Shown in pieces: positions 3,362 through 59,743 of a DNA stretch of 64,000 bases (position 1 is its first letter; each line of letters begins with the position of its first letter). The stretch is from Dioscorea cayenensis subsp. rotundata (taxonomy: Eukaryota; Streptophyta; Magnoliopsida; Dioscoreales; Dioscoreaceae), in contig NC_052474.1 in NCBI RefSeq assembly GCF_009730915.1, positions 1,337,501 to 1,401,500 on the forward strand, in the 5' to 3' direction. The position numbers were made by a program, and so were the translations under genes. The notes under the pieces were generated by a model, which did not search any database, was not told the DNA's origin, and saw only the letters and a program-made list of their open reading frames with translations.

Positions 3362-3490
3362 TGTTAGAATTAGATGATCTCATTATCAATCAGAACAAGG
3401 TCACATGAATATGTATATACACAAGTATACAAGTATGGCAGATGTACAAAGATGGATAGACAGTTGTATACACAGTTGTATTGCCTAACA
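3362..3490 (-). repeat. 5' LTR of element A (129 bp)
   Basis: The + strand reads TGTTAGAATTAG at the left end and TTGCCTAACA at the right, giving a 6-bp perfect terminal inverted repeat with canonical TG...CA ends. The primer-binding site abuts it on the internal side. At 129 bp it is at the short end for copia LTRs. The host side is GATAC (3491-3495), the expected target duplication if the other flank were visible. Confidence 0.85.
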
Positions 3491-34115: not shown

Positions 34116-34330
34116 CGCGATTGGGTCTCTAAACCCTTCCCGCCCTCAACCCTTAATAGGACTTTCAATCAGGATCCGATAACCCGAATCCGATAACCCC
34201 CACCGTCGCAAGGGTTTAGAGTCTGACTTATAAATTATCGGGTCGGATTCAAATCGGATTCGGGTTCGGGTTTCACGAGAAAGTCCGCATTGCCCTCAAA
34301 AGGCTCCGATGCCGCCGTCCCCATCCTCCA
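34116..34330. promoter_or_regulatory. Short shared (bidirectional) promoter region
   Basis: 215 bp between the ATG of the minus-strand microprotein gene and the ATG of the PPR gene. It contains two copies of ATCCGATAACCC (from about 34174 and 34188), inverted against GGATTCGGGTT near 34256-34266, and a 22-bp near-repeat of the microprotein's first exon (34074-34095 versus 34200-34221, both containing CCGTCGCAAGGGTTT). A telo-box-like AAACCCTAA is at 34018-34026 inside the microprotein intron; such motifs are common in translation- and organelle-related plant genes. Shared control is inferred from spacing only. Confidence 0.55.
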
Positions 34331-34374
34331 ATGCTCTCCGCCGTGCGCCGCCTCTCGCGCCACCGGTTCTCTGA
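34309..34374 (+). other. Out-of-frame uORF overlapping the PPR start
   Basis: ATG at 34309 opens a 21-codon frame that ends in TGA at 34372-34374, past the PPR ATG at 34331 and in another frame. If the transcript begins upstream of 34309, ribosomes starting there would bypass the main start. It matters only if the transcription start is that far 5'. Confidence 0.5.
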
Positions 34375-36766
34375 GCTCCATCCTTGCCGCCCCATCTCCG
34401 CCGCCGCCGACACCGCCTCCGGCAGTGCCTTCGATCCTATCCTCCAGTTCCTCCCTCCTCTCCCCCTGCCATCTCGAACACTCCCGCTTTCCCTCCGCCG
34501 CGCGCTCCTCCTCTCACTCGCTCGCGCCCTCAAGAGCGATCCCATCTCCCACCCCTCCCTTGTCTCCTTCTCCTTCTCCTCCGCTCTCCTTCTCTCCTCC
34601 TCCTCCCCTTCCTCCCAAATTCTCGCCCAGCACCTCCTCTCCTCCCTCCTCCTCCTCCATTCCCCTTCTCATTCCCTCCACGAAGAGCTCCTCCAATGGG
34701 CCCGCCAAGAATCTCACTACGCCGCTCTCCATCTAACCCTCCGAGCCTTCCTCGGCGCCAGCATGCCCTCCGCCGCTCTCTCCGCGCTCCATCTCATCCG
34801 CCTGTCCAACAAAACTCCGCCGCTCTCCGCCCTCTCCATCCTGCTGCGCCTTCTCTTCAAAAAAGGTGACACCTTTGATGCTTGGAATGTTTTCAAGGAA
34901 ATGCTTGCAAGAGGCCCCCGACCGGGCGTTCGTACATTCAACATCATGATTCTTGGCTCTTGCTGGAGAGGCAATTTGAGGGTCGGGATGGCGCTTTTGG
35001 AGGTCATGCGGAAGTTCTCTTGTGAGCCTGATACCTGTAGCTATAACATCTTGATGAAGGCTCATTGCTTGCTCGGAAGATACAGTGATGCACGTAAGGT
35101 GTTTGAGAAAATGTCCAAATGGGGTTGTATGCCGAGCATTGTTGCTTATAATATATTGATCGATTCCTTATGCAAGGAAGGGAGGATGGAGGATGCGAGA
35201 ATATGTTTTGATGAAATGGAGAAAACAGGTTTCAAATCGAATACGGTTACTTATAATGTGCTCATTAGTGGGTATGCTAAATCAGGGCAGCTAGAGAAGG
35301 CAAATGTGGTTTATGAGGAGATGAGAAAGAAGGGATTAGCACCTGATTGTTACACTGTCAACATTCTTCTTGCAGGGCATTGCAAGTTTGAGAGAGATGT
35401 GAATTATGACCGGCTGTTGAATGATGTCTTGAGGCCTGACCTGTTCAGGGATGACACAGTGTTGGATGTTTTGATAGCAAGATGTTGCTGGGATGGCCGG
35501 TTTCATGAGGCTAGGGATCTTTTGAAGCAGCTGATCGATAAGGGTGTCATGATCAGAGTAGCTGCATTTAACTCTGTTATCACAGGTTATTGCAAGGAGG
35601 GATTGGATGAAGATGCTTTTGACTTGTTTCGAGCTATGGTAGATGCTGGGTTGTCACCTTCAGCCACCACTTGCAATTCTTTGCTCATGGGCTTGTGCAA
35701 GAAAGGGAGACTGAGTGATGCAAGCAAACTGATTGAAAAGATGGTAAGCAATGGGTTGTGTATGAATATATCTGCTTTTACAATCTTTTTGGATGCATGC
35801 TTTAGAGTAGGCGATCTAGATAGTGCTAAGAAGTGTTGGAATGACATGAAGATGCAAGGGATTCACCCTGATGTCATTGCCTTCTCAGCCTATGTTAATG
35901 GTCTATGTAGAGCTAATTATATAGAAGAGGCACACGAGGCTTTCCTTCAGATGTCCAAGAGAGGATTGGTTCCCAATAACTTTGCTTACAATTCACTGAT
36001 ATCTGGATATTCTAGAGTTGGAAATGTTGATGATGCTTTGAAATTGGAAAGTAAGATGAAAGAAAACAGACTTGTTCCTGATATCTTCACCACAAACATA
36101 CTTATTAACGGACACTGCAAACAAGGAAGTTTGAAGCGGGCAAATAACATGCTTATGCAACTTTATGACCGTGGATTAACCCCTGATGTTGTTACTTACA
36201 ACACAATAATTGGGGCTTATTGTAAAGCTTCTGATATGGCAAATGCGGAGAGATTTGTTAGTAAGATGCTTGCAGAAGGGATTGAACCCGATATATTCAC
36301 ATATAACATTTTGATCCATGGTCTTTGCAGTAACTATATGATGAACAGAGCTATGGAGATGGTAGATGGGCTTCTGTCAATGGGATTTGCACCTAATACA
36401 GTTACTTACAACACCATGATGAATGGTACTTGCAATGATGTTCTTGATCGCGCTATGATCCTGACTGGGAAGTTACTTAAAATGATCTTCCTTACAAATG
36501 TTGTTACCATTAATCTGCTGCTCTCTCATTTCTGCAAGCAACACATGTATAAGAAGGCATTGATATGGGGCGAGAAACTTAGTCAGCTACCCTTCAACTT
36601 CGATGATGCCACATGGAATATACTTAAACAAGCTTATGATAACCCACAAGAAGATGCAGTGAGTTCTAAGACGGAACACAGCAGGGAGCCTGTTTCTGGA
36701 ATTTTCTCATGTATAGCACCTATGAATATCTACTCAGGAATAAGCCTGCTGAACATAAACAATTGA
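34331..36766 (+). CDS. P-class pentatricopeptide repeat protein, organelle-targeted
   Basis: 811 residues in a single exon, as typical for PPR genes. The first ~120 residues are rich in Arg, Ser, Pro and Leu and begin MLSAVRRLSRHRFSELH, fitting a mitochondrial (or dual) targeting peptide. From about residue 178 to 780 there are roughly 15-16 tandem 35-residue PPR motifs of the P type, for example TYNVLISGYAKSGQLEKA, AYNILIDSLCKEGRMEDA and TYNTIIGAYCKASDMANA. No E, DYW or SMR domain follows. P-class proteins bind specific organelle RNAs and affect their stability, splicing or translation. The target cannot be told here. The first ~530 bp is strongly GC- and CT-rich, unlike the rest. Confidence 0.93.
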   Translation: MLSAVRRLSRHRFSELHPCRPISAAADTASGSAFDPILQFLPPLPLPSRTLPLSLRRALLLSLARALKSDPISHPSLVSFSFSSALLLSSSSPSSQILAQHLLSSLLLLHSPSHSLHEELLQWARQESHYAALHLTLRAFLGASMPSAALSALHLIRLSNKTPPLSALSILLRLLFKKGDTFDAWNVFKEMLARGPRPGVRTFNIMILGSCWRGNLRVGMALLEVMRKFSCEPDTCSYNILMKAHCLLGRYSDARKVFEKMSKWGCMPSIVAYNILIDSLCKEGRMEDARICFDEMEKTGFKSNTVTYNVLISGYAKSGQLEKANVVYEEMRKKGLAPDCYTVNILLAGHCKFERDVNYDRLLNDVLRPDLFRDDTVLDVLIARCCWDGRFHEARDLLKQLIDKGVMIRVAAFNSVITGYCKEGLDEDAFDLFRAMVDAGLSPSATTCNSLLMGLCKKGRLSDASKLIEKMVSNGLCMNISAFTIFLDACFRVGDLDSAKKCWNDMKMQGIHPDVIAFSAYVNGLCRANYIEEAHEAFLQMSKRGLVPNNFAYNSLISGYSRVGNVDDALKLESKMKENRLVPDIFTTNILINGHCKQGSLKRANNMLMQLYDRGLTPDVVTYNTIIGAYCKASDMANAERFVSKMLAEGIEPDIFTYNILIHGLCSNYMMNRAMEMVDGLLSMGFAPNTVTYNTMMNGTCNDVLDRAMILTGKLLKMIFLTNVVTINLLLSHFCKQHMYKKALIWGEKLSQLPFNFDDATWNILKQAYDNPQEDAVSSKTEHSREPVSGIFSCIAPMNIYSGISLLNINN

Positions 36767-38682: not shown

Positions 38683-41087
38683 TTACCTCGAGTTTGCAGC
38701 ATTCATCATCACAAATTTTCGCATGCCGATGGCATTTGCATTCTCATTCAGTTTAGCCAGGTGAAGCATTCGTCTTTTCTGAGATTCAACACCACTTGCT
38801 TGTTCAACTTTCTTCTCATTATCAGAATCAGTGAAAGCAAACTCCTCCATGGACTCCTCTGGACCACTCAAATCAGTAAATTGCATCGCTTGCTTCAACC
38901 ACTCAACCACATCGCTCATCTTCGGGCGATCCTTGGCATTCTTCTCCAGGCAACTGTAAGCTATTTTTGCAACTTCCTTAGCACCCTTCATCGAGTACTG
39001 ATTTTCAAGCCTCAGATCCATAATCTTGCTGAAACTCTTGCATTGTTTCAGCCAATCCAAAAGTTTCTGCTCGTGTCTTGGACGGTTTCTCTCCATTGAT
39101 CGCCTTCCGGTGAGGATCTCGAACAGTACTACTCCAAAACTGTAAACATCACTCTTCGATGTCAGATGGCCAGTCTCGACATAATCCGGAGCTGCATACC
39201 CGTATGTCCCCATTACCTAACCACCACAATAAAACCATTAGAATGACATTACAGCCAAAACATGTGCGTAAGTAGGAGTTACAAGCAGAAAGTTACATAC
39301 TGCAGTGGATACATGAGTGTCCCCTTCTGCCGGTCCTTCTCTTGCTAACCCAAAATCTGAAAGTTTTGGGTTAAATTCTCCATCTAACAGAACATTCGAG
39401 GCTTTAAAATCTCTATATATTACCTGTACAAAGCAGCATACGTCAAACATGCGAATCATAAAAATTAAACTGAAGAATACCGATGTTAATGGTAGATTTA
39501 ATTAACCTGGACTTCCAGCCCTTCATGCAGATAAGCTAACCCCTCAGCTGCACCCAATGCAATATGGAGTCTTGTACTCCATGGGAGAAAAGGATAAGCT
39601 TTGTTGAACAAATGATCCTCTAAACTTTTATTAGGCATGAACTCATACACCAACAACCTTTGTATTCCTCTTTCACCGTCTTCAGAACAATAACCGAGGA
39701 GCTTTACAAGGTTTGGGTGTTCAACAACTCCAAGAAACTGAACTTCTGCCAACCATTGCTTGTGCCCCTACATTAGTTTAGATTTGAGATTGACAATAGG
39801 CAGTCTTCAATAGTATGAATGGTAAATCATGAAACCTTTAAATTGAGCAAAGACAGATAATTTAACTCAAACTTGCTAGTGATGATCCTGACAGTGTCCA
39901 TTTGGCTTTACCACAAGTGTACTCCTCATCAATAAATTTTAAACAATTTAATAATGCAAGGTGGACTTCCTTTAAACCTGCCAGTGATGATCCTGACAAT
40001 GTCGGTTTGGCTTTACAACAGATAATTTATACTGAGTAAAGACAGAAATTTTAACTCAAACTTGGTAGTGATCAATGTCCATTTGGCTTTACAACTAGTG
40101 TACTCCTCATTAATAAATTTTAAACAATCTAATAATGCAAGGAGGACTCCCTATAAACCTGTTGCTCTACTTGGGTGCTTGTCTCACATTCTCTGTTAGT
40201 ATCTCTTTATCTGTATGATGTTTTTCTATTTTCGGTGATTGTTCATCGTTACTTCCTGTGGAATGATATCCTTTCATCTAATGCAAGGAGATAGGACTAA
40301 CCAGTTGAATTTAACTTCATTTATTGCAACAGAAACCATTAACAACTGAGTTTGTCATAGCCACTTCATGTGGCATGATATCTTTTCATCTAATGCGACA
40401 GATATGACTAACCAGCCAAATTTGACTTCATTTATTGCAGCAGAAACCATTAATAATTGACATTGTCATTCAGAAGCCTCATTATTAGAGGAAGATTTTA
40501 GAGAAAAGCATGGTGAACATACAAACAATTCCTCCTCAATTTTTGTTTTTCTTTCTAACATATGATGATAAAGAAAAGCTCAATAAGCATGTCAACACAT
40601 AGTATCATAACAATGAAGAGAATACAAAACAACAAGAACCAAAAGCAGGTGAAAAAAGCATTAGATGATACCACATGGCATGGAATGAGTATAATGGCAT
40701 AAGAACAAGCATCACCTGCAAACCATTCTGGTTTAGCTTCTTCACTGCAACTATGGTGCTTTCTTTCTTGCTACCAAAAGGCTTAATTAAACCCTTATAT
40801 ACACTTCCAAAACCACCCTCCCCAATCTTCAACAGTCTGCTGAAATCATTAGTAGCATTCCTGAGCTCCTTAAGATCGAAAACACGCAAATGTTGTGCTT
40901 TCTCTTCATACAGTGCTGGTATGCTGCGTTGTGAAGAGGAAGACCCTGAAGACTTGCTTGTTTGCTTGCCAGCACCTGAATCAGTGGATCTACTTGTCCC
41001 ATGGTTGGACGTTGTTGCAGAGATAGGAGTTGATCTTCTTTGCTGCTTATACTTGAGCTTCTCTTTGAAGTAGTCAAAACAACCCAT
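38683..41087 (-). CDS. Receptor-like cytoplasmic kinase, RLCK-VII (PBL/PCRK-type)
   Basis: Four exons on the minus strand: 41087-40716, 39767-39507, 39423-39301, 39216-38683, giving 429 residues in one frame. It starts [10 protein letters not shown]: Gly2 and Cys3 suggest N-myristoylation and palmitoylation, so attachment to the plasma membrane. A Ser-rich linker follows to about residue 55. Kinase: G-loop [11 protein letters not shown] (89-99), catalytic Lys116 in [12 protein letters not shown] with Asp216, SDFG with Asp234, then [30 protein letters not shown] replaces the textbook APE. The HRD His is Tyr, as is usual in this family. Such kinases relay signals from pattern-recognition receptors in immunity and growth. 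The C-terminal ~55 residues are acidic, then basic. Intron 1 holds tandem duplications. Confidence 0.93.
39846..40161. repeat. Degenerate tandem duplication in RLCK intron 1
   Basis: Two ~130-bp copies (39846-39980 and 40034-40161) share AAAGACAGA, TGTCCATTTGGCTTTAC, GTGTACTCCTCAT and TAATGCAAGG. A shorter third copy of the core lies at 39981-40024. Non-coding. Confidence 0.8.
40251..40469. repeat. Second tandem duplication in RLCK intron 1
   Basis: Two ~108-bp copies (40251-40358 and 40362-40469) share ACTTC.TGTGG, TTTTCATCTAATGC, TTCATTTATTGCA and CAGAAACCATTAA. Unrelated in sequence to the preceding pair, so the intron grew by more than one duplication. Confidence 0.8.
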
Positions 41088-42474
41088 TCCTTTTAATGTG
41101 GATGATATCTTCTTGTTGTGATGTTCGGGCTCTCTTTCTTTAAGGTTTTTTTTTACATCTAGTACTAGATTTTAGTGAAATGAGATTGAATTGAAGAAGG
41201 GAAATGAATAAAAGGGAGAAAATGCAAGCAAGTATGAACTAAAAAGGAGAAATAGGTGAGCTAATTGAAGGAAAGGAGTGAACTTTTAGACTTTTAGATG
41301 AACAAGACTGGTAAAATTGATAGAAAGCAAAGAAAACATAACAAAAACCAGAAAGGTGTGAACTTTACTACTAGAGAAGTTCAGGAAAAAAAAACAGCAA
41401 CAAAGTGCAAATGAAACAAAAATCAAACTAATCTCATACAGAATGAGGGAAAAAGTATACCTTTAAGATACCAAACAAATATGAACAACAACCAGAGAAA
41501 AGAAAATGGGGATCTAAGGACAGAACAAGCAAAGAACAACCACAAAACACAAAATTTAGAATAAAATAGCACAAGCTTTATATGCAGGTAGAACTCTATC
41601 CAACTCAAAAGTCAAATCAAACAATCCAAAGCCCGTGAAGCGAAGGTAGTGGCATTGAAAGAGAGAGAGAAAACGACACCCGCGATGACCTCAATCGCGT
41701 ACCCTTTTCTCAGGTCTACGGCCAAAAAGGAATGAAGATAGAGAGAGAAGGAGAGAAGGAGAGAAACCTCCGCGCTGATTCCTTGGTCCCAGTGCTCCTT
41801 CGAAGGGGAGACAGAGAGAAAGAGAGCAAACAAATGAAGAAAGATGGCTTTTTTATCGTGTTCGAGAAGGCAAAGGATTCATTGAGCTTTAGTTTGTCGT
41901 GTTGAAAGTTGAAACGAGAAAAGGACTTTTTCGTAAAAATAAAATACTAAGGGGTTCAAAGCGCAAAAAATTGTTGCAATTGAAAAAAGGACTTATTTGT
42001 AAAAATAAAATATTAGGAGGATCAAAGTGCAAAATTGCTGCAGTTGGGTTGCTGTTACTTTCTCATTGATTTTGTCAAGGAGAAATAAAGTCCAAGTTTG
42101 TTGAGTGACCCTTTGAATGTATTGATACATCACTTATTTAATATTAGCAATTGGAGCATTTCACCCAATCAGGTTTTTTCCCCTTCTTCTTTTTATTATT
42201 TTTAAAATTTATCCTTTTGAAAAAAATAATTAATTAATTGATTAATTGATGGTGAGTTGGTGGGTGTGACCCGTGTGAGGGTTTATTTTGGCGTTGACTG
42301 CGTAAATAAGAGAATAATGAGGTGGATGTATATATATATATATATACTTTTCTCTAAAAAAAAGATCAACTTAATTATAATTTTTAATTAATGGGTTTTG
42401 TGAAATATATTTGTGATTTTAAGTAATATTTAACTTTTTTTTTAAATAGCGGCATATATAAGGCTCAAACTTTG

Positions 42475-42517
<43 letters not shown>

Positions 42518-44202
42518 AATAATTAAAACCAAACTTGTAAAGTTGACATCAATCATTAAATAGTTCAGTAGTAAGGAATCTAAATAGTAAGAGAGTGTTG
42601 TTAGGTCATGGGTTTTTTTAAAAAAAAATTGTATTCTCTATATATTAGGTATGATAATTCAGAATATTTATTATTATGAAATTGTAATTCCTAATATATT
42701 TTTACAATGTATGTTAATCTGCTCTATGATAAATTTACATAGTTAATTAATAAAAATCATTACTCACTTGACCTATTTAATAATCTCGTGGAGGCACTTA
42801 TAGCTTTTGTCAAATATATATATATATATATATAGAGAGGCTTGAGAGGTTAATAATATGATCACCATCGTCATAGTGAAAAATGGACTTACATGTTAAT
42901 GATTTTAATTAAAACTTTTTCATGGATTAAATGGAAAAAAAAAAACCTAAATTGAAATGAATGAACCGTACATTACACTCTGGCAATCTTAAAAAAGGTT
43001 GATGAACATGAGCTGTGTAATATGTCAATATTTATTTAAATAAAAGACTTGGGACTAACAAAGGGTAGTCAATCTTAAATTTAATAAAATATTATCAAAC
43101 ACTTTTTATTTATTTATTTTGAGAAAATAAAAGAATTGCAAATGGTTTTCAATCACATGTCGGTATGTAGTTACCAAATTATTTAAATAATTAAGTTTTA
43201 ATATTAAACTATTAAAAAAAGGTTTAATTTTAAATGTGATTCTCATCCAAACAACAACCATTATTATGTAGGATCACCAGAAACTATTTTTTTATATTAA
43301 TTTTTAACCTTAAGAATTAAAAAATTATGAGATATATGATTTTTATTATTCTTCTTTTTAAAATTTAGCTATGGAAGCAGAAAACTTTTTTTAACTTAAT
43401 CTTTACTTAAAAAATAAAAATTAAGAGATATATCATATAAGATTTTTATTTTTATTAAAAAAAAAAAGCTTAAACCAATGGAACGTTTCCCCGTGAATTC
43501 CGTGAAACCGTTTGCATTAAAACACGTTTCCCTACTCCATATATATGCAGAGTTCAGTCGACGTAGCGCGCTTCTCTAAACCCTAAATTTCAACTATTTT
43601 CAAATATTTCCGATCAAAAACCCCAAATTTATCCTGAGATTAATCCTTCAAACCAGCAATTCTTCCAGTTGGGCAAAGAAAGGTACCACCTTTTATCTCC
43701 TTTTGCTTTACAAGTGAACTTTTTCAGGTTGATTTGTGGGAAAAATATATTGTTTTTGCAGTACTGAAATTAATTAATTTCTGAAATAGTTTGTATTATA
43801 GATTCTTTGTTCATTTTCATGGTTTCTATATCTTGTGATGTTTTACTTTTCTTAAATTTAGTCCTTTTTTTTAATCTGAAATCTTATGTTTTATTTTTTT
43901 TATAATCTTTGTTGTGAACACTGCACCATTGAATTCTAGTCTTCATGATCTTTTAAGGTTTGTGTGATTTACCATATGATTGATTTTTCTTTTTCAATGT
44001 GCTCTACTTTGAGTTTTCATTTTGTCCTGAGTCTATAATTGATAAGGCTTGCAGAGAGATCTACTTAATTAGGTGCATGCAATTGATGACACTGAATGAG
44101 ATGCATAGAATTAAAACAGAGATATGAATTAAGTTTGGGTACAATAGAGACAATTAAGTGTCAATCATTTAATCATATTAAGTATGTCAGAGAATTTCAT
44201 CA
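41088..44202. other. Intergenic and leader sequence, AT-rich
   Basis: 41088-41880 is probably promoter and leader of the RLCK gene. Then very AT-rich spacer with TA microsatellites at 42329-42346, 42478-42511 and 42814-42834. From about 43560 the sequence resembles the leader of the intact eIF4G-derived gene downstream, including a shared GCAAAGAAAG|GT donor (43673-43684 region). No intact gene seen. Confidence 0.6.
44086..44127 (+). other. Fossil start / uORF upstream of the decayed MIF4G gene
   Basis: ATGACACTGAATGAGATGCA... encodes MTLNEMHRIKTEI then TGA. It repeats the beginning of the real coding start at 44203 (MALNEMHKSAKRYEVG). The same duplicated start exists upstream of the intact paralogue. 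Confidence 0.65.
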
Positions 44203-46424
44203 ATGGCACTGAATGAGATGCATAAATCTGCAAAGAGATATGAAGTTGGGAGAGTGCTTGGAGGAGAAGATGCAATGCAAAGGAAATTGAAATTGATACT
44301 AAACAAGATCACACCTCAGAATCTCAACATTCATTTTAAACAAGTGAGAGAGGCCAGTACCATGGAGACTTTTAGTCTTAGTGATTTTGTCTTGCAGATT
44401 GTTCGAAGGGCTGTTGCCGAAGAGGTATACTGTGAAATGTATATATGTTGAGTTCTTTGGTCTCATGGATGATATTCTGTCATATTTCAACAGTAGCAAG
44501 CAAAGAATTGCTGTCAAAATAGAGAAAGAATGTCAGAAGATATTTGATAGAAGTTGTTTGTATGATGAAGGTATCAGTAAATTATCTGAAGAGGAAAGGA
44601 TGGATGAAAAGATCAAAGTGAAAATTTATAAGTTTGGAAGTGTTCGGTGAATTGGGGAATTATTCAGAAAGAACATGATTCACTCTCATATCCTGCTTTA
44701 TTGTATTAGTGTTTTGTTAGAACTGGATGAAAATCCTGATGAGGAAAATATTGAAGCTTTATGCCTCTTGATGAGTCTGGCAGGTAAGAAGCTTGATACT
44801 GTGCATAAGATTTCTGTGGGTATAAGTTTTTGGAAAATGGAGAAGCTATTAAGAAGCCAAAAAATATCTTATCGTTGTCGATTCATGCTGAGGAATTGTA
44901 TTGATCTCAGAAACAATGGGTGGTAAGAAAGAAAGGAAATTGAGAAGCCAAAAAAGATTTGGGAGTTGCACAAGGCTGAGAGGAGATATGAAGTTGGTAG
45001 AGTGTTTGGCACTGAAGATGCCAAACAGAGAAAGCTAAGATCAATACTTAACAAGTTAACACCCCAGAATTTGGCAATCTCTTTTCAGAAGTTAGAAACT
45101 TAGAAAAGTGAATATCAACCGAATTGCCGTTCTTTCTTTTTTCGTCTCTCAGATCTTTCGCAGAGCTTTATCCGAACCTACTTACTGCCAATTATATGCA
45201 GATTTCTGCTCTTATCTTGTCAATGAACTTCCTGTGTTTTGCAGTGACACTGAAACAGTTACTTTTAGAAGTTTACTTTTAAACAAATGCAACCAGAAAT
45301 TTTATCACAGGGATAGAACTCAGCCAAATGTGAAGAACAGAGAAGGAAGTATTTGAAGTTGACTCAGTGGAGTCAGAGATCAGGGAACGCTGCCAATGGC
45401 TGGAAAACATTCAGTTTATTGGAGAATTGTGTAGAGTTAAGGTTTTGACAGAAAGGATACTGGTTCATTGTATTAAAAACTTATTAGAGCACCAGAGTTT
45501 TGATGACAAAGGAGTTGAAGGCTTGTGCAAATTGATTAGTTTTGTCGGTGAAATGATAGACCTTCCCTCATTTAAGGAACATGTGGATGAATATTTTGGC
45601 ATAATGGAGCAGATATCAACTGTTAAAAATTTACCTTACAGGATTAGATTTAAGTTGATGGATGTGATTGATGGCAGAAAGGATGAATGGCAAAGAATGA
45701 TGAAAACTGAACAGCTAAAGAACACCGAAGAGATGCATATAAGACTTAGAAATGATGAAACAAGTGTGATAAACTTTGGTCCTTCGGAAGAGAATTATGA
45801 AGATTTGGATGTCAGGGTAGTAAGAAACGAGATAGAGTTCGATGAAGATTGCTACATTTTGGAGTTGGATCCTTGCCAGTCACTGACAACTACTGATCTC
45901 AACCACAAACTTGAACTTGCTGATGATCAAGAAGAGGATTTCTGCATTGTTGCAGAAAAGTGCCAGGTGCTCTTGTATTTGTTAATTTCTGACAAAACCT
46001 GAATAACATTCTGAAAGTGATAAAAATTTCCTCAAGTTGCACGGAATTATCATAAACATAATCTTCAACTTCAATTTCTGAATATGTTTGCAGGTTGCAT
46101 GTAGAGATTATCCCCACTCAAGACATCTTTGTTGTACAATACCCTTTCAACATGACAAAGCATGAGAAATCTTGTGCTCAGATACTGGTACTATTTCTGA
46201 TTTGGATCTTTATCAGAAATGTGTAGAATGAACATGAAAATTTCACCTTGATCTTTGGAAATGTTCAGTGTTATTGTTACGTATGCGAAGAACAAGCTCC
46301 CTGTGGACTATGGGAAGGGAAATCTGGCCATTACCATGCTTCTGATAAAGAATATAAGTGGACTCATCTGAGGCATGCTTTCAGAAACCAACGTAAAAAA
46401 AATTTGAAAGATAACTTATGCTAG
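44203..46424 (+). pseudogene. Decayed paralogue of the tandem-MIF4G gene
   Basis: Collinear with the intact gene at 47854-50864: start MALNEMHKSAKRYEVG, first MIF4G-like region, second MIF4G-like region, acidic tail (DEDCYILELDPCQSL), then two short 3' exons (46094-46181 and 46269-46424). Lesions: frame breaks near 44440 and 45100, TGA at 44648-44650, TAA at 44924-44926 and a further stop near 45354. One extra base lies in the 88-nt second exon (87 nt in the intact gene). The donor after it (46182-46183) is AT instead of GT. A conserved His of the Cys/His module has become Tyr (GHYHAS versus GHCHAS). The second half of exon 1 (45357-45966) is still open, so decay is uneven. Confidence 0.85.
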
Positions 46425-47853
46425 GACACAAGGTCCTTTCAATTTTATGTAACTTATTCTTCAGTGACATAAATAATACTTAGTTTCTTTGTAAATTATC
46501 CAAAGAAGACTAAAAGTCTTTGAGTTTGTCTCTAATTTTTGGTTTTCATTGTTTGCATTGTTTTACTGTCATGTTCTGGTTTGATTGAGGTTGTTCATCA
46601 TGTAACTCGAGCGAGTGCGGAAAAAGAGGCATGGAAACGCAATTCCTTTGTAAAGGTTGCCAAAACTCATATATATATTTGAAAAAATAATTTGTATAAT
46701 ATATATACACTAATTTATAAAAAACCAATAGACCAAATTATAAATTTAGAAATCTATCATATAACCCAATTTATAATGTCAAGCGCCAACCAAGAAAATT
46801 TTTTAACTATTTTTTCTAAAACTATATTTTTTTTTTATAGTATATATAATAATTTGTTAAAAAACTAATTAGTTAAACGATTGATTTTTGCAAAAATTAT
46901 ATAAATGATGTTCACACATATTTTTTTTTCTTTCTAAAAGTATATATTTTTAATTATTTGTATCAATTTGTAAAATAATAATTTTTATATATCAATTTTA
47001 AAAAATAATATTTTAAAAAAAAAAACAAAATAAAACAAAACAAAAGGGAGGGCAGCTCTGCCTATGCCTTTTCCCATGCCCGCTACATTTCCCATTTGCT
47101 TTGATGAAAACGAAGATCAATCAGCGCTTTTTTCCCGAAACCCTAGATCAAATATCAACAATTTTTCATGGTTTTGTGAGAGATGGATCCTCTTAAGCAG
47201 CAATTCTTCCCGTGAAGCAAAGAAAGGTGCCACCTTTTATCTACTTTTACTTTGCCAGTGACTTTTTTTTAGGTTGGTTTGGGGAAAAATATAATGTTTT
47301 ATGATGAAATTTCTGAGAAATCGTGTTCTTTAATCTCTTGATCATTTTAATGGTTTAGAATCAAATCTCTTCTTTTAGAGCCATGAAATCAGTGAACAGT
47401 AATGATCCTTGCTACTGAATTGAGAATTTAGTTGGGATTCTTGGGAACAATCATGGACCAGAGGAAAAGTACTCCTTTTTTTTTTTGGACTGAAAATTTT
47501 ATTTTAATTTGAGCGTTTATATGTTTTCAATGTTAACATGTTTGTTGTGAGCACTGCACCATGGCAATCTTGTCTCCATGGTTTCTTAGGGTTTGTGTGA
47601 TTGACCACAAAATGATTGGTTTTGTTCATGGTGACAGGGGGAGCTGAATAGTAACTATGTTCTTTTTGTTGGTCATGGATTTTTTACATTGAGTTATGCT
47701 TTGAGTTTTCATTTTGTGGCTGAGTTGGAAACCAGTGTATGTCAACTAGTTCAATCAATGACACTGAATGAGATGCACGCCAGAGATGTGAAGTTGGTTT
47801 CCGGAGATGCGCTTTCTCGCCAATCATCTAATTGTCACTAACAGAGGGATTGC
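46425..47853. other. Spacer and leader of the intact MIF4G gene
   Basis: Very AT-rich to about 47040, then a leader resembling that of the decayed copy: CAGCAATTCTTCC...GCAAAGAAAG followed by a GTGCCACC donor near 47226, indicating a spliced 5' UTR. It contains a 27-codon uORF. Confidence 0.6.
47758..47841 (+). other. uORF with duplicated coding start, 12 nt before the main ATG
   Basis: ATG at 47758 encodes MTLNEMHARDVKLVSGDA... for 27 codons, ending TAA at 47839-47841. Its first residues copy the main start (MALNEIH...RYEVG). It ends 12 nt before the ATG at 47854, so it could lower translation of the main frame if it remains in the mature leader. Confidence 0.6.
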
Positions 47854-50800
47854 ATGCCAGCTATTCCATCAATGGCACTGAATGAGATCCATACAGCTGA
47901 GAAGAGATATGAAGTCGGGAGAGAGTTTGGAAAACAAGAGGCAAAGCAGAGGCAATTGAGATCCATACTTAACAAGCTCACACCTGCAAATTTTGAGGTT
48001 CTCTTTGAACAAGTGCTAGATGTCGCTTTGGTTGACGCTAGCGTTGTTCCTGATTTTGTCTCGCAGATTGTTGGAAGAGCTATTGGGGAACCAATTTACT
48101 GTGAAATGTATGCTGAGCTCTGCTACCTCATCGATGGTAAACTATCGGTTTATTATAGCAGCGATAATAATATATTTACTGTGAAAAGATTGGTCCTGAA
48201 TGAATGTCAGAAGATATGTGAGAGAGATTTTGGGGTTGTAGATGAAGAAACGATTAAATTGTCTGAAGATGGAAGAAATTATGACAAGATCAAAACACAT
48301 ATTCATATGCTTGGAAGCATTCAATTCATTGGGGAACTCTTCAAAACGACAATGATTCCCTTGAAAATCATGCATCATATCATTCAGGTGTTGTTAGAAG
48401 GGTATCAGAATCCTGATGAAAAAAATATAGAAGCTTTATGCTTGTTGATGAGTACTGCAGGCGAGATGCTAGATGGTAAGAGTGAAAAATTAATGGATAA
48501 ATATTTTTGCAGGATGCTGGAGCTATCAGCAAACAAAAAACTATCTTCTCGTGTTAGATTCAAGGTGATGAATGCTATTGATCTTAGAAATAATGACTGG
48601 CAAGAAAGGAGGAAAATTGAGAGGCCAACAAAGATTTGGGAGATGCATTTAGCATGCAAGCGGCATACTCAATATCGTCCCTATGGTTTCACCATTATCT
48701 CTCAAACACAGCTTGACTATGACTCTCCAGTCCCTTGTGTTCAAGATGTTTTTGAAGAGGGAGTGCTCAATAGAAGGTACGAACACATTGGGCGCACGCT
48801 GTCTCGAAGCAGTCCCAATGATCTAATTAGATCCTCACATGCAAAGATGTTAGATCCTGACAATCCTGACAGACTACCTTTTGGATATGGATCAAGGGAA
48901 CATCAATTAGGCCCTTCAGATGTTGTAGAAACACAAAGAAAATTGGTTCCTTCTTCTCGGACACCTTTGGTTGTGTTGCACAAAGCTGAGAGGAGGTATG
49001 AAGTGGGTAGAGTGTTTGGCAGAGAAGATGCCAAACAAAGAAAGCTTAGGGCTATACTTAACAAGTTAACTTTCCAGAATCTTGGCAAACTCCTTTTAGA
49101 AGTCAGAGAGGTAAATATTGAACATATTATCACTCTTTCTGGTTTTGTCTCACAGATCTTTGACAAAGCTTTACTTGAACCAACTTACAGTGAGGTATAT
49201 GCAAATTTCTGCTCCTGTCTTGTCAATGAACTTCCTGGTTTTCACAGGAATGATGAAACAGTTACTTTTAGAAGGTTGCTTCTAACCAAATGCCAAGAGA
49301 AATTTGAAAGAAGGGATAGAGATCAACCACCTGTGAAAGGAGGCGAGGGGGAAGGCATTGATAGTAAGTTATATGAAGTTGACTCAAAGGTATCAGAGTT
49401 CCAGGGATGCCACCAAAGACTGGGAAATATTCAGTTTATTGGAGAATTGTATAGAGTGCGGATGTTGGCAGAAGGGATAATGCTGTGTTGCATTCAGACC
49501 TTGTTGAATGGGCACCAGAGTCCTAATGGTGAAGATATTGAAGCCTTGTGCAAATTGATCAGCATTATTGGTGATAAGATAGACCATCCCAGAACGAAGA
49601 AACGTCTTGATGCATATTTTGTCATTATGGAACAGTTGTCCACTAGTCAAAAGTTATCTCATCGGATTAGATTTATGTTGATGGATGTGATTGACCTTAG
49701 ACAAAATGAATGGCAAAGAATAAGGAAAACTGAAAAGCTGCAGAAAACTGAAGATGTGCATACAATATATAGAAACGGATTGAACGTGATAGACTTATGT
49801 TCTTCGGATGAGAATGATGTCAATTTGGATGATCACTTTGTTAATAACACATGCTTGGATGCCAAGATACCGAGGAAGGAGAGAATGGTCGAGGAGGATT
49901 GCTACATTTTGGAGCCAGATGCTTGTCAGTCACTGGCTGCTGATCTTGAGCACAAAGTTGCACTTACTGATGATTCAGAAGAAGATGTCTGTATTATTTC
50001 TGAAAAAGGCCAGGTATTCTTGTATTTATTAATTTATGGTAGAGCACAACATACACCATAATGTTCATAGTTTTGAGAAAAATATATTTTTAGGCATTCA
50101 CTACATGTTCAAACATTTCTCCTATTTGATCTAAAATATGACTTCGAATTGATCAAGTTGTCCAAATGGATTTTAGTCTATCTAATTGTAAAAAATCTGA
50201 AGAGTTGAGACTCTGACCTGATTGAACATGCATGAGATTCTGGTCAGAAATCTTATGCTTCTTAACACATTTATGTTGGAAATATCATAGACGATTGTGA
50301 ACAGACCATGGTAATGCTATGTTTCAAGAATGATAAATTCAATGCTACTTTAGGAAAAGAATGAATGAATGCCTTTGAGAAGAACAAAACTTTTATTGAT
50401 AATAAATCCCTTGCTTTTCTAAGCAATGCACCAAATAGAAGTATAAAACCATATTTTGCTACTGGTGATCTTTTAATGCAATTTCTGATCATATTTGCAG
50501 GTTGCATGTAGAGATTACCCCCATCCCCGGCATCTTTGTGCACAATATCCCTTTAACTTGACAAATCATGAGAATTCTTGTTCTCAGGTATTGTTTCTAA
50601 TTTATTTCTTTATTTATTCAGTAAAATAAGTCAAGACATAACAAAGAAATTCAGTTTACTATTGAGCTATTATTATTCAGATAAGCATTCCTGCCTCACA
50701 AGTTCATCTTGATCTTTCAAAATGTCCAGTGTTATTGTTATGTTTGCGATGAACGAGCTCCCTGTGAACAGTGGGAAGGGCAACTCGGCCATTGCCATGC

Positions 50801-50864
50801 TTCTGACAAAGAACATAAGTGGATTGATCTGAGAGCTGTTTTCAGAATTAAAAGGAAAATTTGA
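47854..50864 (+). CDS. eIF4G-derived protein with two MIF4G domains and a Cys/His-rich tail
   Basis: Exons: 47854-50013, 50501-50587, 50730-50864; 793 residues, GT-AG junctions, one frame. Residues ~12-262 are a MIF4G domain of the plant eIF4G type (RYEVGREFGKQEAKQRQLRS, ILNKLTPANFEVLFEQV, IQFIGELF). Residues 263-374 form a linker. Residues ~375-640 are a second, closer MIF4G copy (RRYEVGRVFGREDAKQRKL, VSQIFDKALLEPTYSEVYA, NIQFIGELYRVRML). Then comes VIDLCSSDE (645-653), a SUMO-interacting-type motif, an acidic stretch, and a terminal module VACRDYPHPRHLC...CSQCYCYVCDERAPCEQW...GHCHASDKEHKW. The eIF4G N-terminal region with the eIF4E-binding site, and the MA3 region, are absent. I recall a similar Cys-rich block in RIN13-type plant proteins, with low certainty. 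MIF4G domains bind eIF4A and RNA; function here unknown. A second in-frame Met (47872) matches the paralogue's start and may be the true one. Confidence 0.8.
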
Positions 50865-51954
50865 AGATGTCTGATACTATTTAACTTTCTTTTAAAATGT
50901 TCAACCAGTAACTGCATTTCATTTGCTACTGCAGCTGTTGTTATGTGTATATGAAACTGTATACATCTTCCTTTCACTGTAAATTCATGAAGCTATACAC
51001 CGTATGAGTTTAAAAAACTTAATGTAAATCTTGATTTATTGTAATCTATAAATTTATATATATATATATTTTTTATAAGGTGGACAAGTCATCGTAGGTC
51101 AGGGGCCCGGCAATGGCATGGCGGAGTTAGTCCTTCAATGCCGCACTGACGGCACACTATAGTTTCATTCCTTCTATACGTAGCTTCATTTATATGTGTA
51201 TATAACTTTTAACTTTATATGTAGCATTATCTAAATTTAAGATGCACTTCTTCAGCAGCAAGGCAATGAAGTTAGTACTTGTTTGCATTGTAATTTACCT
51301 AAAGAAAAGAGTCCTTGGATAATAACATTAAAGAAATTTCCATTCTAAAATCATATATTTGACATCTTGTTTGAGTTTCTTAAAAAAGAAAATATGATGA
51401 TAAATTTCCATTAAAAAAATCATAAAATAACTGCCAAGTGGGTTTATCAATCCAAAGTGCTTGGTCAAAGTCCAAACTTTTGATTAATGGCAAGTGTCAC
51501 TTATTATCATAAATTAAACACATTCAAGTTAATTTTTTTTTTCATTGAAAAATTTTCTAGTCAATTTAATTAAATGAATTTATCCATATCAGTAAACCAT
51601 CCCACTTATTAAGAGAGAAGCTCCTCAGTACTCGTCTCTCTAATTTGCTTAATTTTATATACATTAATCATTAAAAATTTGTAATTATGAAAATACGGAG
51701 ACAGACAATAAAGTCAAGAAACAATGAGTCATTAAAGGACCATTTTGAAACCATATTAGTATTTATAGAATAATAATAATGATTTTAATAATAAATATTT
51801 CAAGAGATGGAGACAAGAGTAATGATGTATGGGCCCTAAAAAATCTAGGCTCGGGCCTGTAATTTCCTGGTTAGATTTAGTCAGATTCAGACACATGCAT
51901 GGAAGAAGTAAATCATGTGTTGGAAATTGACCAAAAAGGGAGGAAAAAAAAAAG
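50865..51954. other. Spacer after the MIF4G gene
   Basis: AT-rich, with a more GC-rich patch at about 51080-51175 that I cannot assign. No coding signal. Confidence 0.5.
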
Positions 51955-52137
51955 ATAAAAAAGCACACGGGCGTATGCTAGGAATTATTAGGTTAATTAG
52001 AGAATTATACAAACTGAAAATGTTGACAGAAAGAACCATGCATTAATGCATTAAAAAAATTGTTAGGGCAGTATCCAAATTGTGATCTAAAAGATATAGA
52101 GATATGCAAAAGTCTCGTAGGAGCAAGTAGAAATAGG
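51955..52137 (+). pseudogene. Relic of an eIF4G MIF4G domain
   Basis: Translation of the + strand from about 51955 reads KKAHGRMLGIIRLIRELYK, then LKMLTERTMH-stop-CIKKIV, and after a one-base frame change GQYPNCDLKDIEICKSLVGA. It is collinear with the central part of the plant eIF4G MIF4G domain and with residues ~520-570 of the intact gene 2 kb upstream. It is closer to canonical eIF4G (RLIGELYK.KMLTER) than the neighbours are. About 180 bp survives, with a stop and a frame break. Confidence 0.75.
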
Positions 52138-52695
52138 ATCTACGTATATGTGGTTATGGAGATCACCTGCATACACTCACTACTCACACACCCAAAAATA
52201 TATCTTTATCTATGATTCGAGTTTTTTCACTTGCGAAGAGTTGTGAAAACCTGAATACCTACAAATCATTTGATAATTGGTAATCCTGATTAGAGTTGGT
52301 GCCGAAAAGTGTATCATGAAACTAATGCCACATTTCACACAATTCATTCATTCATTCCTTTTCCCTTCTTTTGTCCTCTACTTTTCAATGTCATTACCAA
52401 TCAATCTCTTTTTTTATTAAGTTTCCTAATTGTCATCTAAGTTCACATATTTAATGATATGATTCATCTCATCTTTATTAACACATGCTCACATAATTTT
52501 TAACTAACCCAGTTTCAAATTCTAATCAATTTATTAGTTTATATAACCGAGTTCAAATATAACTTATAATACACTAATGGTGTGAATACACGCTATATAT
52601 ACACTGGATCATGTTTTGGAATCAAAGTGCACGAATCTAAAAGGAACAAGTAAGCGGATATATATCCGTTGCAGTTCTAAGACTAACTCACACGA

Positions 52696-52709
52696 GTGTC
52701 ACGTGACAC
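52696..52709. promoter_or_regulatory. 14-bp palindrome containing a G-box
   Basis: GTGTCACGTGACAC is a perfect palindrome centred on CACGTG, the core bound by bZIP and bHLH factors. It lies about 700 bp before the MAP65 ATG and about 220 bp before the CT tract. Confidence 0.55.
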
Positions 52710-52920
52710 CAGGTCATGATAACTTGAACCGCCGCTTAACTGAGGCCCACTAAATACCATAGAATCCGCTGGCATTAAGTAAGGCAAGATTAGCAATCAT
52801 AATTGCCCACGTTGGCGATACCTTCCTTTTTGGATGTTCCTGCGGTCCATTAAATCCCGCCCTCCATTTCAAATCCAAACCCTCTTTCTCTCTTCTCTTT
52901 TTCAAATCCCCATCTCCAAC

Positions 52921-52921
<1 letters not shown>

Positions 52922-52961
<40 letters not shown>
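52922..52961 (+). repeat. CT microsatellite
   Basis: About 20 uninterrupted CT units near the start of the MAP65 leader. Long CT/GA tracts are common in plant 5' UTRs and core promoters and can vary in length between individuals. Confidence 0.9.
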
Positions 52962-52964
<3 letters not shown>

Positions 52965-53408
52965 GGGGTTCATTGTCTTGGAGATTTGAGGAAGAACTCG
53001 GTTGTTTGATTCGGAGCGGGTGCTGGATTTCAGGGTTTCAATTGGTGAGGTGTTTTGAGCTCTTGTTTCTCTGAAGTTAGATCAAAGGTGTGGGATTGGT
53101 AGAGTGAGAAGGCCAGGTTTTAGCTGATTGTTAGGTTTTTTTTTTAAATTGTATTGGATTTGATGTTGAATTTCTTGATTGGACTTCTGTTAATACTGTT
53201 TTATTGATTGAATTTCTTGATCTAAAAGTTGGCTCTTTTAGATCTTCATGATTTCATAGCATTCTTTCTATTTTCTATCTTCTAGACTTTTTTTTTTCAT
53301 AGCTATTTAGCTGGAGAGGATGTGAATTTTCTATTTGCTTTGATTTCACAAGCTTATTCTGTGTGTGCTGAATGCCATTATGTGTTGCAGTGTGAGAATC
53401 AGTTCAAA

Positions 53409-56400
53409 ATGTCTAACCTTCTGAACGATCAGCTTTTGCAAGTGGAAACAACATGTGGAACTCTTCTATGTGAGCTTCAGGTATATCTATCAAACTTTGG
53501 CTTGTTTTGCTTGTGGTTTCTTTTCATATATTCTTGGTAAAAAGATGATTTTTGTCTCTTCATTATCATTTGCCAATTTTGTCATTTGTGAGGTTTCAAA
53601 ATTGATATTCACATTGTATATTCAGCCAAATTTGAAACCTCAAGACTAAAGTCGTCAAATTTAAAGATGAGGACCAAATTTAGAAGGAATTATGCTACCT
53701 TCCCTTTTAAGTAGTTTGAATTTTCCCCCCTCCTTGAAATGTGCCCATTTTTACACATTCCAATGGACATTAGTATACAGATTGTGTGCCCATTCGTTTG
53801 TTGTTAAATCATCTAAGCCATGTGGTTTGCAGAGATTAATTTTGTGGAGAATGTGTATTGATTACAGATAATATGGGATGAAGTTGGGGAATCTGATGTG
53901 GAAAGGGACAAATTGCTATTCCAGTTAGAGCAAGAATGCCTGGAGGTGTACAGAAGAAAAGTTGACCAGGCAAATAAATCGAGAGCTCAACTGCGACAAG
54001 CCATTGCTGATTCCGAAGCAGAGCTTGCTGCTATCTGTTCTGCAATGGGTGAACGTCCAGTGCATAATGGGCAGGTTTGTTTCCTGTCCATCCTTTCTAA
54101 TCACTATGTGTATAACTCCCAAGAATGGCTTTTCAATGTCTATGCTTGCTAATCTATTTAGGCAAATAAGTAAATAAAGAAATAAATAAAAGGGTAGTTA
54201 CAATTGCTTCTCTTAGATAACTATTTGTTTCCATAATATTAGAAGCAGTCTCACGTACCGAAATAAGCATCCCATGCATCTATCATGTGGTTCTTTTCTT
54301 TGAGCAGAAAGCGGGGACCTTAAAAGAAGAGCTTAGGGCAATTACTCCACAGCTAGAGGAAATGCGAAAGAAGAAGAATGAGAGAAGAAACCAATTTCTT
54401 GTAGTTAATGAGCAAATACAACATATCTTGAATGAGATCAGGCCTGCAGAACAAAATAGATGCAAGAATGCTTTAGATGAATCTGACCTATCTATTAAAA
54501 GGCTCGAGGAATTGCATAGGCAGTTGCAGTCCCTTCAAAAGGAGAAGGTTTCAAGTTGAACAGAAGCCCAAAAGGATGATTCCTTTTGTGAAATCCTTTT
54601 TTTTTTTTAAATGTTCAGTTCATTCTGCTTACTGATTAGGTTTTTGTTTTCCACAGAGTGAACGTCTGAAGCAGGTGCTGGATCATTTGGGCACATTGAA
54701 ATGTTTATGCTCAGTGCTTGGCATGGATTTCAAGCAAACAGTTAGTGAGGTACACCATAGTCTAGAAGGAGCTGAAGTATCAGTAAGTGTCAGCAACGAA
54801 ACAATTGAAAGGCTGGCATCTGCAGTGCATAGATTGAGGGAGATGAAATTACAACGAATGCAAAAGGTAAATGGCTTTCTTTGTATGAAGCAAACTCAAA
54901 AACTTCTATCCTCTTAATCTCTTGGCTTTTGGCAGCTACAAGATCTTGCAACAACTATGTTAGAACTTTGGAATTTGATGGATACACCCATTGAAGAGCA
55001 ACAAATGTTTCAGAATGTAACATGCAATGTAGCCGCATCTGAACATGAAATAACTGATGCAAACATGCTTTCCGAGGACTACATTAATTATGTGAGTTAA
55101 TATTGACGTAGAGGTGTATGAATGCTGTTTCTTTACTGATTGTAACTTTTTTTTTTTCTATTCATTATATGAACCATTGAGTGAATGCATTTATGATACA
55201 GGTGGAGGCAGAAGTTTTGAGGCTTGAAGAACTAAAGACTAGCAAGATGAAAGAACTGGTTCTGAAGAAAAAAACAGAATTAGAAGAGCTTCGGAGGAGA
55301 ACACATCTGGTTGCAGATGCATATAACGAAATTGAGTATGCAATTGAAGCCATTGAGTCTGGTAAGCCTTATCATTTTTCCTGCTTGTACCAGTCCGTGG
55401 TTATTCTGCTGAATTTATGTTATCCCAAAAGATCTTTACTGTACATTATACGTTCCTTGATTAGGTGCTGTTGATGCTTCTTTGGTCTTGGAGCAAATTG
55501 ATCTACAAATATCAGCTGTCAAAGAAGAAGCTTTTAGCAGGAAAGATATTCTTGAAAGAGTGGAGAAATGGTTGGCAGCCTGTGATGAGGAATCCTGGCT
55601 AGAGGAGTACAACAGGGTTGGCATTATGCTTTTCTTTGTTTGGCTCAGCATATTCTAAATATGATACTGATCTTATTCTAGATATGATACTGATCTTATG
55701 GTTTATGCAGGATGAGAATCGGTACAGTGCTGGACGAGGCGCTCATCTCACTCTCAAACGTGCGGAAAAAGCCCGAGCTATTGTTAACAAACTTCCAAGT
55801 AATTGATCTATGGCCAATATTTTACAAATCACAGATTTAGACAGCAATTTATTAAACCTCTAATCAGATAATATCACCATCTCTAGCATGTAAATACTTT
55901 GTATTACATCTGATTTATTTCATGTTATATCTGGAGCAGCAATTGTGGATGCTTTGACTACTAAAGTTGCAGCATGGGAAAAGGAGAGAGGGATTGAGTT
56001 CACTTACGATGGGGTGAGTCTACTGCTTCCAATGAAACACTGATAAGTAATACAAATTTAATCTAACAAGTTTATCGACTTAACTAACCAAATCATTTGG
56101 ATGGTCAATTTGGTGAAGCTGCTTGTAACAAATAACATAATTAAAATACCATAAAACACTTGCAGGTCCGCCTATTGTCAATGCTGGAAGAGTACAGCAT
56201 TTTGAGGCAGGAGAAAGAGCAAGAGCGCAAGAGGCAGAGGGTAATGCCTATGCCCCTCAGATACTTGCAAATTTATCACTGCATTTGATGTGCTACTTTG
56301 TAACAACTTGATCATCTCTTTCTCCAGGATCAGAGGAAACTTCAGGGTCAGCTCATAGCTGAGCAGGAAGCACTCTATGGATCCAAACCAAGTCCATCAA

Positions 56401-57468: not shown

Positions 57469-59743
57469 CTAAAGAGAGAAAGGCTTCGCATAAACATCAA
57501 ACATGTCACCAGCCGTAAGTTGTGGCTCCTGCAAAGGTGATGAAAAACAAAATAGACATGAGAACAAGACATTTTGTTTGCCTTCAGTGTACCTCAAGAG
57601 TATAACAGCAAGAAGTTCAACCTTGCTGTGAAAGTACCTGTCTCAAGCCGCCACTGCTAAGGCTGCCTCCTGTCAACAACATTGTGATGAGTGATGTAAC
57701 AGGACCGCCACCCGTTGCATCACCAGTGCTTCGGATGGTTGTTCTCATTGAATTGAGTATGCTTCCATACGTGGCCCCATGCCCCCGTTCAATGGCTTGA
57801 ATAAAACAAAATGTCATCGCACCGGTTGAGGTGATCTTTGAAAGAGCCTACACATTTCAATTAAAGAAATTTTTTTGTAAATCAATTATATTTAAGTATT
57901 TCCCTTCTCACAACAGCTATTCAGGCAGATAATAATTCAAAATATTATCTGAAGATAAACCTGAAATTGAGGAGAATGGCTTTCAACTAATTAAGAAATG
58001 TTGTTTCTATCTTAGTATCATTCCAGTATGAGAGCTGTTTGCCCATATTAGTCCATTTTAATAATTTTAGTATCATACTATTTATAGTCATGAAGGTGCA
58101 CATTATTTATTTTTTTCTCACACCACTATATTAATGAAGATGGCATCATTATTGAAACTGAAAAGGAATGCTGGAAAAGATCATTGGCCAAATTGTTCCA
58201 AGTACCATTTTTGATCTTTTGGCAGGGGTTTTAACAACTGAAGGCATTTACATATAGATGTTGTCAAATGAGCAATTTTTCTTTCTATAATTTGCATTGT
58301 TATGTATAGATAGAAGAATGAAGATTTAATGATAACTAACAGTCATTCCTCTTGAAAGTCCAGAGGTAAGCATAATAAAATTACCGAGGTATCAGCAGAT
58401 GTTTGGTGATCATCACAACCACTGAAGGAAATAGCTTCACCACCATGTGTGCCCTTCCAAACACCGGATGGTGGACGATGATCTTCCCACCAATATTGAC
58501 CATTCCTACATCAACATGAGTTCCAGAAACTAAGCCCAACGTTTATTGCCAAAGGAAAATTCAGAAAAAGAAAAGAAAATAGAGCTTTCAGCACACATAC
58601 ATACTAAATAAACTGAATGCTAAATTTATCATATGACAACTATTACCTATCCATCCTGCAGAGATACGGAAGATCAAGAACAGTCCCACTGTGACAAGCA
58701 TCTATAATGGCATGAAGCTTTGCACCATGAGGCAGTGGTCTGACAATGGTTGCATTGATTTCATCATCAACAATCATTCCTTGGGTTTCAAAGTCCAGTG
58801 GGCAAAGAGTTTCATCATATCCATCAGCCTCGTCGCCATTATAATTCCTCTGTTGTGAACCATGGCCTGAGTAGTGAAACACCAACGAATCCCCCGGTTG
58901 ACAACCTTGCACAAGCCAGAAAAGTGCCATCCTTATGTTGTGCTTAGTTGGTATTTTATTCGGATCAGTCTCTTCTTCTGCAAATTGACATCCAATATAC
59001 ATAAGGTCCAGCTATGGTGAAAAGCTAACATTCATTAACAAGAGAAAGGAGAGATTGATGATTGATCACAATTCACTCCAAAGAAGATCAATTCCCAAAC
59101 TTGATCCTAATTCGTCAAAGCAGCAAGAAAGCCAGTTTTTCAATGCACACACATTAACACAAATATACCACAAATCATCAACACATATCCCTAATAAAAT
59201 AGCAAAAAAGAAAGCAGTACAAGAGGGTAAATTGTTTTCTAATGAAACAACTCCTAAAGATCCAATCTTTGGCAAAATCTTCATTTCATAGACGAACCAT
59301 GCAACGAAAATTTATGACACTAATTTCCCAAAAACAAGAGGGGGAAAAAACAGATCTTGGTACAGGGTTCGAGATGAGATTCTCACCAGTGAGCATGATG
59401 ATCGACGACTCCGGGAACCGGAACTTGTTGATAAGAAGATACTTCATGCACTTGGCGTCATTAATGCATCCCTTGAGCTCGTGGCGAGAGAAACGATACG
59501 AGATCCCACAGATCACCGCACGCTTCCGGCCATGTACCGACGGAGGGGGTCCCCTGTGGTGCTCCATATGGTGATGGCGGAGGGGCGAAAACTTTGGGAG
59601 GACGCCGGAGAATGCGATGGCACCACCGAGCGTGGGTCAGCGACATGCGTGACGGCATGGCAGAGCGCGCAGCGGATGGACTTGACTCCCGGCGGGAGCT
59701 GCAGGGGAGTCTGGCAGTGAGAGCAGTTGATGAGCATCAACAT
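57469..59743 (-). CDS. Type I metacaspase with LSD1 zinc finger (AMC1-like), frame break in exon 1
   Basis: Arg/Lys-specific cysteine protease; AMC1 relatives promote hypersensitive cell death. Exons on the minus strand: 59743-59387, 58977-58647, 58505-58385, 57847-57638, 57528-57469. Residues 1-~40 hold the LSD1-type finger (INCSHCQTPLQLPPGVKSIR, CALC). A Pro/Ser-rich linker follows, then the peptidase C14 domain: GRKRAVICGISYRFSRHELK, catalytic His in FHYSGHGSQ and catalytic Cys in IDACHSGT, ending DVYAKPFSL. The exon total is 1,079 nt, one short of a multiple of three. The finger and the peptidase are in different frames, so a net single base is missing between about 59540 and 59640, near the GGGGACCCCC run. 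As written, translation stops at a TGA just after the linker. Real mutation or assembly error. Confidence 0.88.

Follow-up and report, generated by a model that had tools for sequence, protein, structure and literature searches.

A plant gene with two eIF4G-type MIF4G domains and a Cys/His-rich tail, probably coding for a regulator and not for a standard translation factor

In a stretch of 64,000 nucleotides from Dioscorea cayenensis subsp. rotundata (NCBI RefSeq assembly GCF_009730915.1, contig NC_052474.1, positions 1,337,501 to 1,401,500), which is referred to as the window and to which all coordinates refer, we have identified an intact gene that has been maintained by selection and that, as judged from its sequence, probably encodes a regulator and not a standard translation factor. 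Its product combines two MIF4G domains of the eIF4G type with an acidic stretch and a tail rich in cysteine and histidine, and a decayed tandem copy of the same layout resides in its vicinity. In our preferred reading, to which we assign a probability of roughly 45%, the protein would be an adaptor or competitor acting independently of the cap: it would hold on to eIF4A or another, related DEAD-box helicase, and its tail would determine where it is located. The features of the locus are:

44194-46397, forward strand: decayed tandem copy, same layout without the linker, two in-frame stops and four frame breaks
47758-47841, forward strand: upstream frame of 27 codons, closed by a stop of its own and in the same phase as the main ATG, its start resembling that of MIF4G-1
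47854-50013, forward strand: coding exon 1, 2,160 nt, 720 codons, encompassing the next four features
47950-48597, forward strand: MIF4G-1, residues 33-248, Pfam PF02854 at 123.6 bits
48679-48963, forward strand: linker of about 95 residues (276-370), absent from the decayed copy and skipped in the DNA alignment
49036-49707, forward strand: MIF4G-2, residues 395-618, the better-kept half
49774-50013, forward strand: acidic stretch, residues 641-720, with 21 D/E and 6 K/R
50014-50500, forward strand: intron 1, GT-AG, phase 0, donor and acceptor context similar in the decayed copy
50501-50587, forward strand: exon 2, 87 nt, first half of the Cys/His tail
50588-50729, forward strand: intron 2, GT-AG, phase 0, acceptor context common to the decayed copy, donor context not
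50730-50864, forward strand: exon 3, 135 nt including the stop, second half of the Cys/His tail

As read from the sequence, the three exons join in phase 0 to yield 793 codons followed by a stop, with the splice junctions being defined by the sequence and by matching sites in the decayed copy. The coordinates and lengths of the exons and the 793-residue product had been proposed in a first-pass annotation and proved to be correct, with GT-AG borders at both introns. The open frame extending over exon 1 comprises 739 codons, whereas the longest frame in 500 mononucleotide shuffles of this stretch, read in all six frames, comprises 210, and an origin by chance was thus rejected.

Both MIF4G copies are of the eIF4G type by sequence, with stronger matches to eIF4G than to the other MIF4G proteins. 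The Pfam MIF4G family matches exon 1 in two stretches with a total of 251.2 bits (E 9.6e-75), and the halves scored separately reach 123.6 and 139.7 bits at a cut-off of 30.8. This domain search, which the first-pass annotation had suggested as a check, bears out its description of two MIF4G copies in a single exon of 2,160 nt. Sequence matches of MIF4G-1 include eIF4GII (E 3e-32), SLIP1 (MIF4G domain-containing protein B, E 0.069) and UPF2 (E 0.52), those of MIF4G-2 eIF4GII (E 1.3e-45), SLIP1 (E 0.0012) and PAIP1 (E 0.0053), with UPF2 being absent from the latter up to E 0.01. The two domains share 43% of their residues, and an alignment of the halves reveals that a short segment preceding MIF4G-1 from about residue 11 is repeated ahead of MIF4G-2. 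The linker region between them (48652-48972) is not matched by any Pfam family at E values up to 1. For MIF4G-2, the eIF4G type is also reflected in the predicted fold: in a Foldseek search with its model, chains of eIF4G and DAP5 occupy the top nine places of 542 matches with E up to 10, and in the ranking by Z they occupy the top seven among the best 50 matches listed, with CWC22 complexes scoring high as well (Z 17.9), a point against our preferred reading. A single-sequence structure prediction for exon 1 was too poor to be interpreted (mean pLDDT 40.3). The canonical eIF4E motif (Y-x4-L-hydrophobic) was not detected in a scan of all 793 residues and the MA3 domain was not matched by Pfam, neither in exon 1 up to E 1 nor in the tail up to E 10, which agrees with the proposed absence of the eIF4E-binding and MA3 regions of eIF4G.

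The tail, correctly described before as a Cys/His-dense block encoded on two short exons, contains 8 cysteines and 6 histidines in 74 residues. Reading the pieces of the decayed copy one by one shows that it retains 7 of these 8 cysteines and 5 of the 6 histidines. The tail is a putative zinc-binding and targeting module, which may resemble the tail of RIN13-type plant proteins. Pfam gave no match to it up to E 10, and a comparison with PDB sequences returned TRIM3 as sole match, which is weak and uninformative (E 0.047). Peptide words of the tail did not match open-licence PMC papers. A degenerate DNA pattern for CYCYVCD/E occurs in 23 stretches of genome contigs and 18 of viral contigs, which were taken as chance because a tblastn search with the tail over these 41 loci gave a best E of 0.28; a protein scan of the viral contigs found one pattern match and no relative. 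In the preceding acidic stretch, two segments (645-655 and 706-715) resemble SUMO-interacting motifs by eye.

In the decayed copy, MIF4G-1, MIF4G-2, the acidic stretch and the two tail exons follow each other in the same order. Its MIF4G-1 contains both in-frame stops and, around the middle, one of the frame breaks; of the other three, two interrupt MIF4G-2 and one exon 2. The two copies agree at donor 1, acceptor 2 and acceptor 3, while in intron 2 of the decayed one the GT is missing at the expected donor and another GT is found 6 nt further. The 5' regions of both copies share similar blocks (43636-43756 and 47180-47300, 82%), and the gene was therefore duplicated together with its leader. 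A counterpart of the short upstream frame is found 5' of the decayed copy at about 44087-44130; this frame may be the remnant of a further copy or module and, if it is contained in the leader, an upstream open reading frame. The common layout implies that the combination of two MIF4G domains and a tail is older than the tandem duplication. It had been proposed that a piece of eIF4G was captured, duplicated internally and fused to the tail. The origin from eIF4G, based on sequence and fold, and the duplication, based on the 43% identity between the halves, are both upheld, whereas the idea that fusion and duplication were particular to the intact gene has to be abandoned, as the decayed copy has both, with matching exon borders.

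Other features of the window are:

3373-6877, reverse strand: further retroelement pieces, assigned by eye, 68-70% alike to parts of the following element
13062-18085, reverse strand: retroelement, Copia-type by the order of its parts, with integrase pieces at 15537-16790
34220-36763, forward strand: pentatricopeptide-repeat gene, 13 PPR_2 stretches in a single open frame of 848 codons
38686-39216 and 40608-41171, reverse strand: pieces of a kinase gene, the first by a Pfam kinase match, the second by eye
51963-52067, forward strand: separate eIF4G relic, a MIF4G fragment with one stop, matching human eIF4GII at E 1.6e-5
53862-54152, forward strand: exon of a MAP65/ASE1 gene, by domain match
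58646-59011, reverse strand: exon of a caspase-like gene, by domain match, which we take to be of the metacaspase type

The larger retroelement is bounded by direct repeats (13062-13250 and 17894-18085, 96.9% alike), is followed by a long run of N and sits between lookalikes of VPS13-like exons, for which a Pfam match was obtained at 10050-10820 and the remainder assigned by eye. A gene of the GH14 beta-amylase type is also among the neighbours. NCBIfam gave one match far below its cut-off, and Rfam none at gathering score within 43000-53000. The alignment scores of the eIF4G relic, whose frame by eye continues in shifted form to about 52116, are 89 for human eIF4GII and 59 and 60 for MIF4G-1 and MIF4G-2; when the human piece was shuffled 1000 times, the score did not exceed 44. 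The relic is thus probably a separate piece of eIF4G and not a copy of the intact gene.

To quantify constraint, dN/dS was determined by the NG86 method between the intact gene and its decayed paralogue on 656 codon pairs with 200 bootstraps, after omitting pairs with stops or gaps, the linker and residues between aligned pieces. For this paralogue pair, the ratio is 0.55 (0.44-0.67) overall, 0.76 in MIF4G-1 (0.55-1.03, a range including neutrality), 0.47 (0.33-0.67) in MIF4G-2, 0.59 (0.24-1.24) in the acidic stretch and 0.23 (0.09-0.47) in the tail, which is thus the most constrained part, with MIF4G-1 being the least. In MIF4G-1, first, second and third codon positions differ to a similar extent (0.284, 0.292 and 0.288), which speaks against constraint on this domain.

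Following our preferred reading, the middle HEAT-1/MIF4G module of eIF4G would have been duplicated internally, and a separate Cys/His tail would have joined the double module prior to the local tandem duplication. MIF4G-2 would grip eIF4A or another DEAD-box helicase related to it, and MIF4G-1 would do so more weakly. Lacking an eIF4E site and an MA3 domain, the protein would take no part in normal cap-dependent initiation, and its tail, which looks like a zinc-binding module, would direct it to a partner or a compartment. Helicase and zinc binding, targeting by the tail and an effect on translation are all predictions. The first of these predictions can be related to residues of human eIF4GI that are modelled at the interface with eIF4A (S738, R764, S767, T773, Q779, Q783 and D982; PMC7470955). 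Except for S738, which is located outside, six of these seven positions can be aligned, with the numbering counted along the eIF4GI sequence. At positions 764, 767, 773, 779, 783 and 982, MIF4G-2 contains K, A, T, K, E and D, thus keeping T773 and D982 and at 764 showing the residue of eIF4GII, whereas MIF4G-1 contains Q, S, T, V, Q and N and keeps S767, T773 and Q783, the acidic residue at 982 being lost. With two to three of the six alignable positions kept per half, and thus about half of them gone in each, helicase binding is possibly weak or lost, although it appears plausible for MIF4G-2.

This erosion in both halves is in favour of a reading in which the tail would be the working part of a RIN13-type nuclear or immune-signalling protein, the MIF4G pair a mere protein-binding scaffold and translation unaffected. 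This leading alternative, which is also consistent with the lowest dN/dS being found in the tail and the highest in MIF4G-1, we regard as unlikely but deserving of serious attention. Against it, MIF4G-2 is still constrained, the likeness to RIN13 is presumed, and a search of open-licence PMC papers gave none that names both MIF4G and RIN13.

A broken neighbour, the relic of eIF4G nearby and the nearly neutral evolution of MIF4G-1 could instead indicate that the gene is just an ordinary duplicated piece of eIF4G on its way to decay, whose frame has so far escaped breakage. Besides the low dN/dS of tail and MIF4G-2, this explanation conflicts with neutral simulations of the intact coding sequence, which introduced substitutions without indels at two transition biases in 400 runs each. 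A dS of about 0.5 corresponds to about 0.25 substitutions per site on each branch, if both branches are equal. At this value, half of the observed synonymous divergence, and equally at 0.10, none of the 400 runs remained free of stops with either bias, which implies that selection acted on the intact frame over the greater part of its branch. The suggestion of the first-pass annotation that the frame is under selection is hence well founded, and a long-term neutral survivor was rejected. A very recent loss of function, below about 0.05 substitutions per site, is better compatible with the simulations, where at 0.05 four of 400 runs stayed open with the stronger bias and none with the other; as a whole, we consider the dying duplicate improbable. 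The mean number of simulated stops was 16-20 at 0.25 and 4-6 at 0.05. Since the decayed copy, in a somewhat shorter alignment, contains only two, it would have broken late, and most of the measured divergence would have arisen while both copies were open. If so, the fast evolution of MIF4G-1 would be a property of working genes, either relaxed or changing.

The frame of exon 1 stays open for 45 nt beyond its donor, which would allow for an unspliced end and for tail exons that belong to another gene, their fusion being an annotation artefact. This is very improbable: the exon phases join in the intact gene, and in the decayed copy the blocks and their order are unchanged, with equivalent donor 1 and acceptors 2 and 3, and the artefact was rejected on these matching borders. 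Hardly credible is a UPF2-like scaffold of nonsense-mediated decay, which was rejected on sequence and domain count, since UPF2, although described with tandem MIF4G domains and an acidic region following the third (PMC3936715), has three such domains of distant sequence and a UPF1-binding end, compared with two domains here that match eIF4G in sequence, MIF4G-1 matching UPF2 at no better than E 0.52.

A relation to viruses is no more than an idea. In rice, virus resistance maps to the gene for eIF(iso)4G1 (RYMV1; PMC7236528), and a gene with a MIF4G domain is a candidate for a virus-resistance locus in bean (PMC8277298). A tandem sink for eIF4A, or for viral proteins seeking eIF4G, combined in a plant lineage with an immune-type zinc tail, could form a switch between defence signalling and translation, with repeated duplication and decay at the locus and the fast MIF4G-1 as signs of an arms race, a scenario that we consider a long shot.

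An architecture of two MIF4G domains plus tail was not found among the open-licence PMC papers listed in our searches, which is weak evidence, as most subscription papers are outside this scope. With eIF4G, the gene shares the MIF4G/HEAT-1 domain, which is of the eIF4G type in both copies, but it differs by the presence of two copies, the added Cys/His tail and the lack of a canonical eIF4E motif and of MA3, the domain in which plant eIF4G and eIFiso4G end (PMC3850090). Competition in translation would be an obvious role for a selected protein that has the helicase-binding core twice and no recognisable cap-binding region, and its conserved tail offers a tractable uncharacterised module. RIN13 is not known to contain a MIF4G domain. 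CWC22 combines MIF4G with MA3, unlike the present gene, which is without MA3 in Pfam scans. DAP5/p97 (eIF4G2), which gave the second best Z for the MIF4G-2 model among the matches listed (21.4), equally contains an eIF4G-type MIF4G domain without an eIF4E site. DAP5 has one MIF4G domain plus C-terminal MA3 and W2 domains, whereas the protein described here has two and a Cys/His tail, with neither MA3 nor W2 in Pfam scans. If it indeed acts as a decoy, it would be a plant counterpart of DAP5-type regulation that was separately arrived at.
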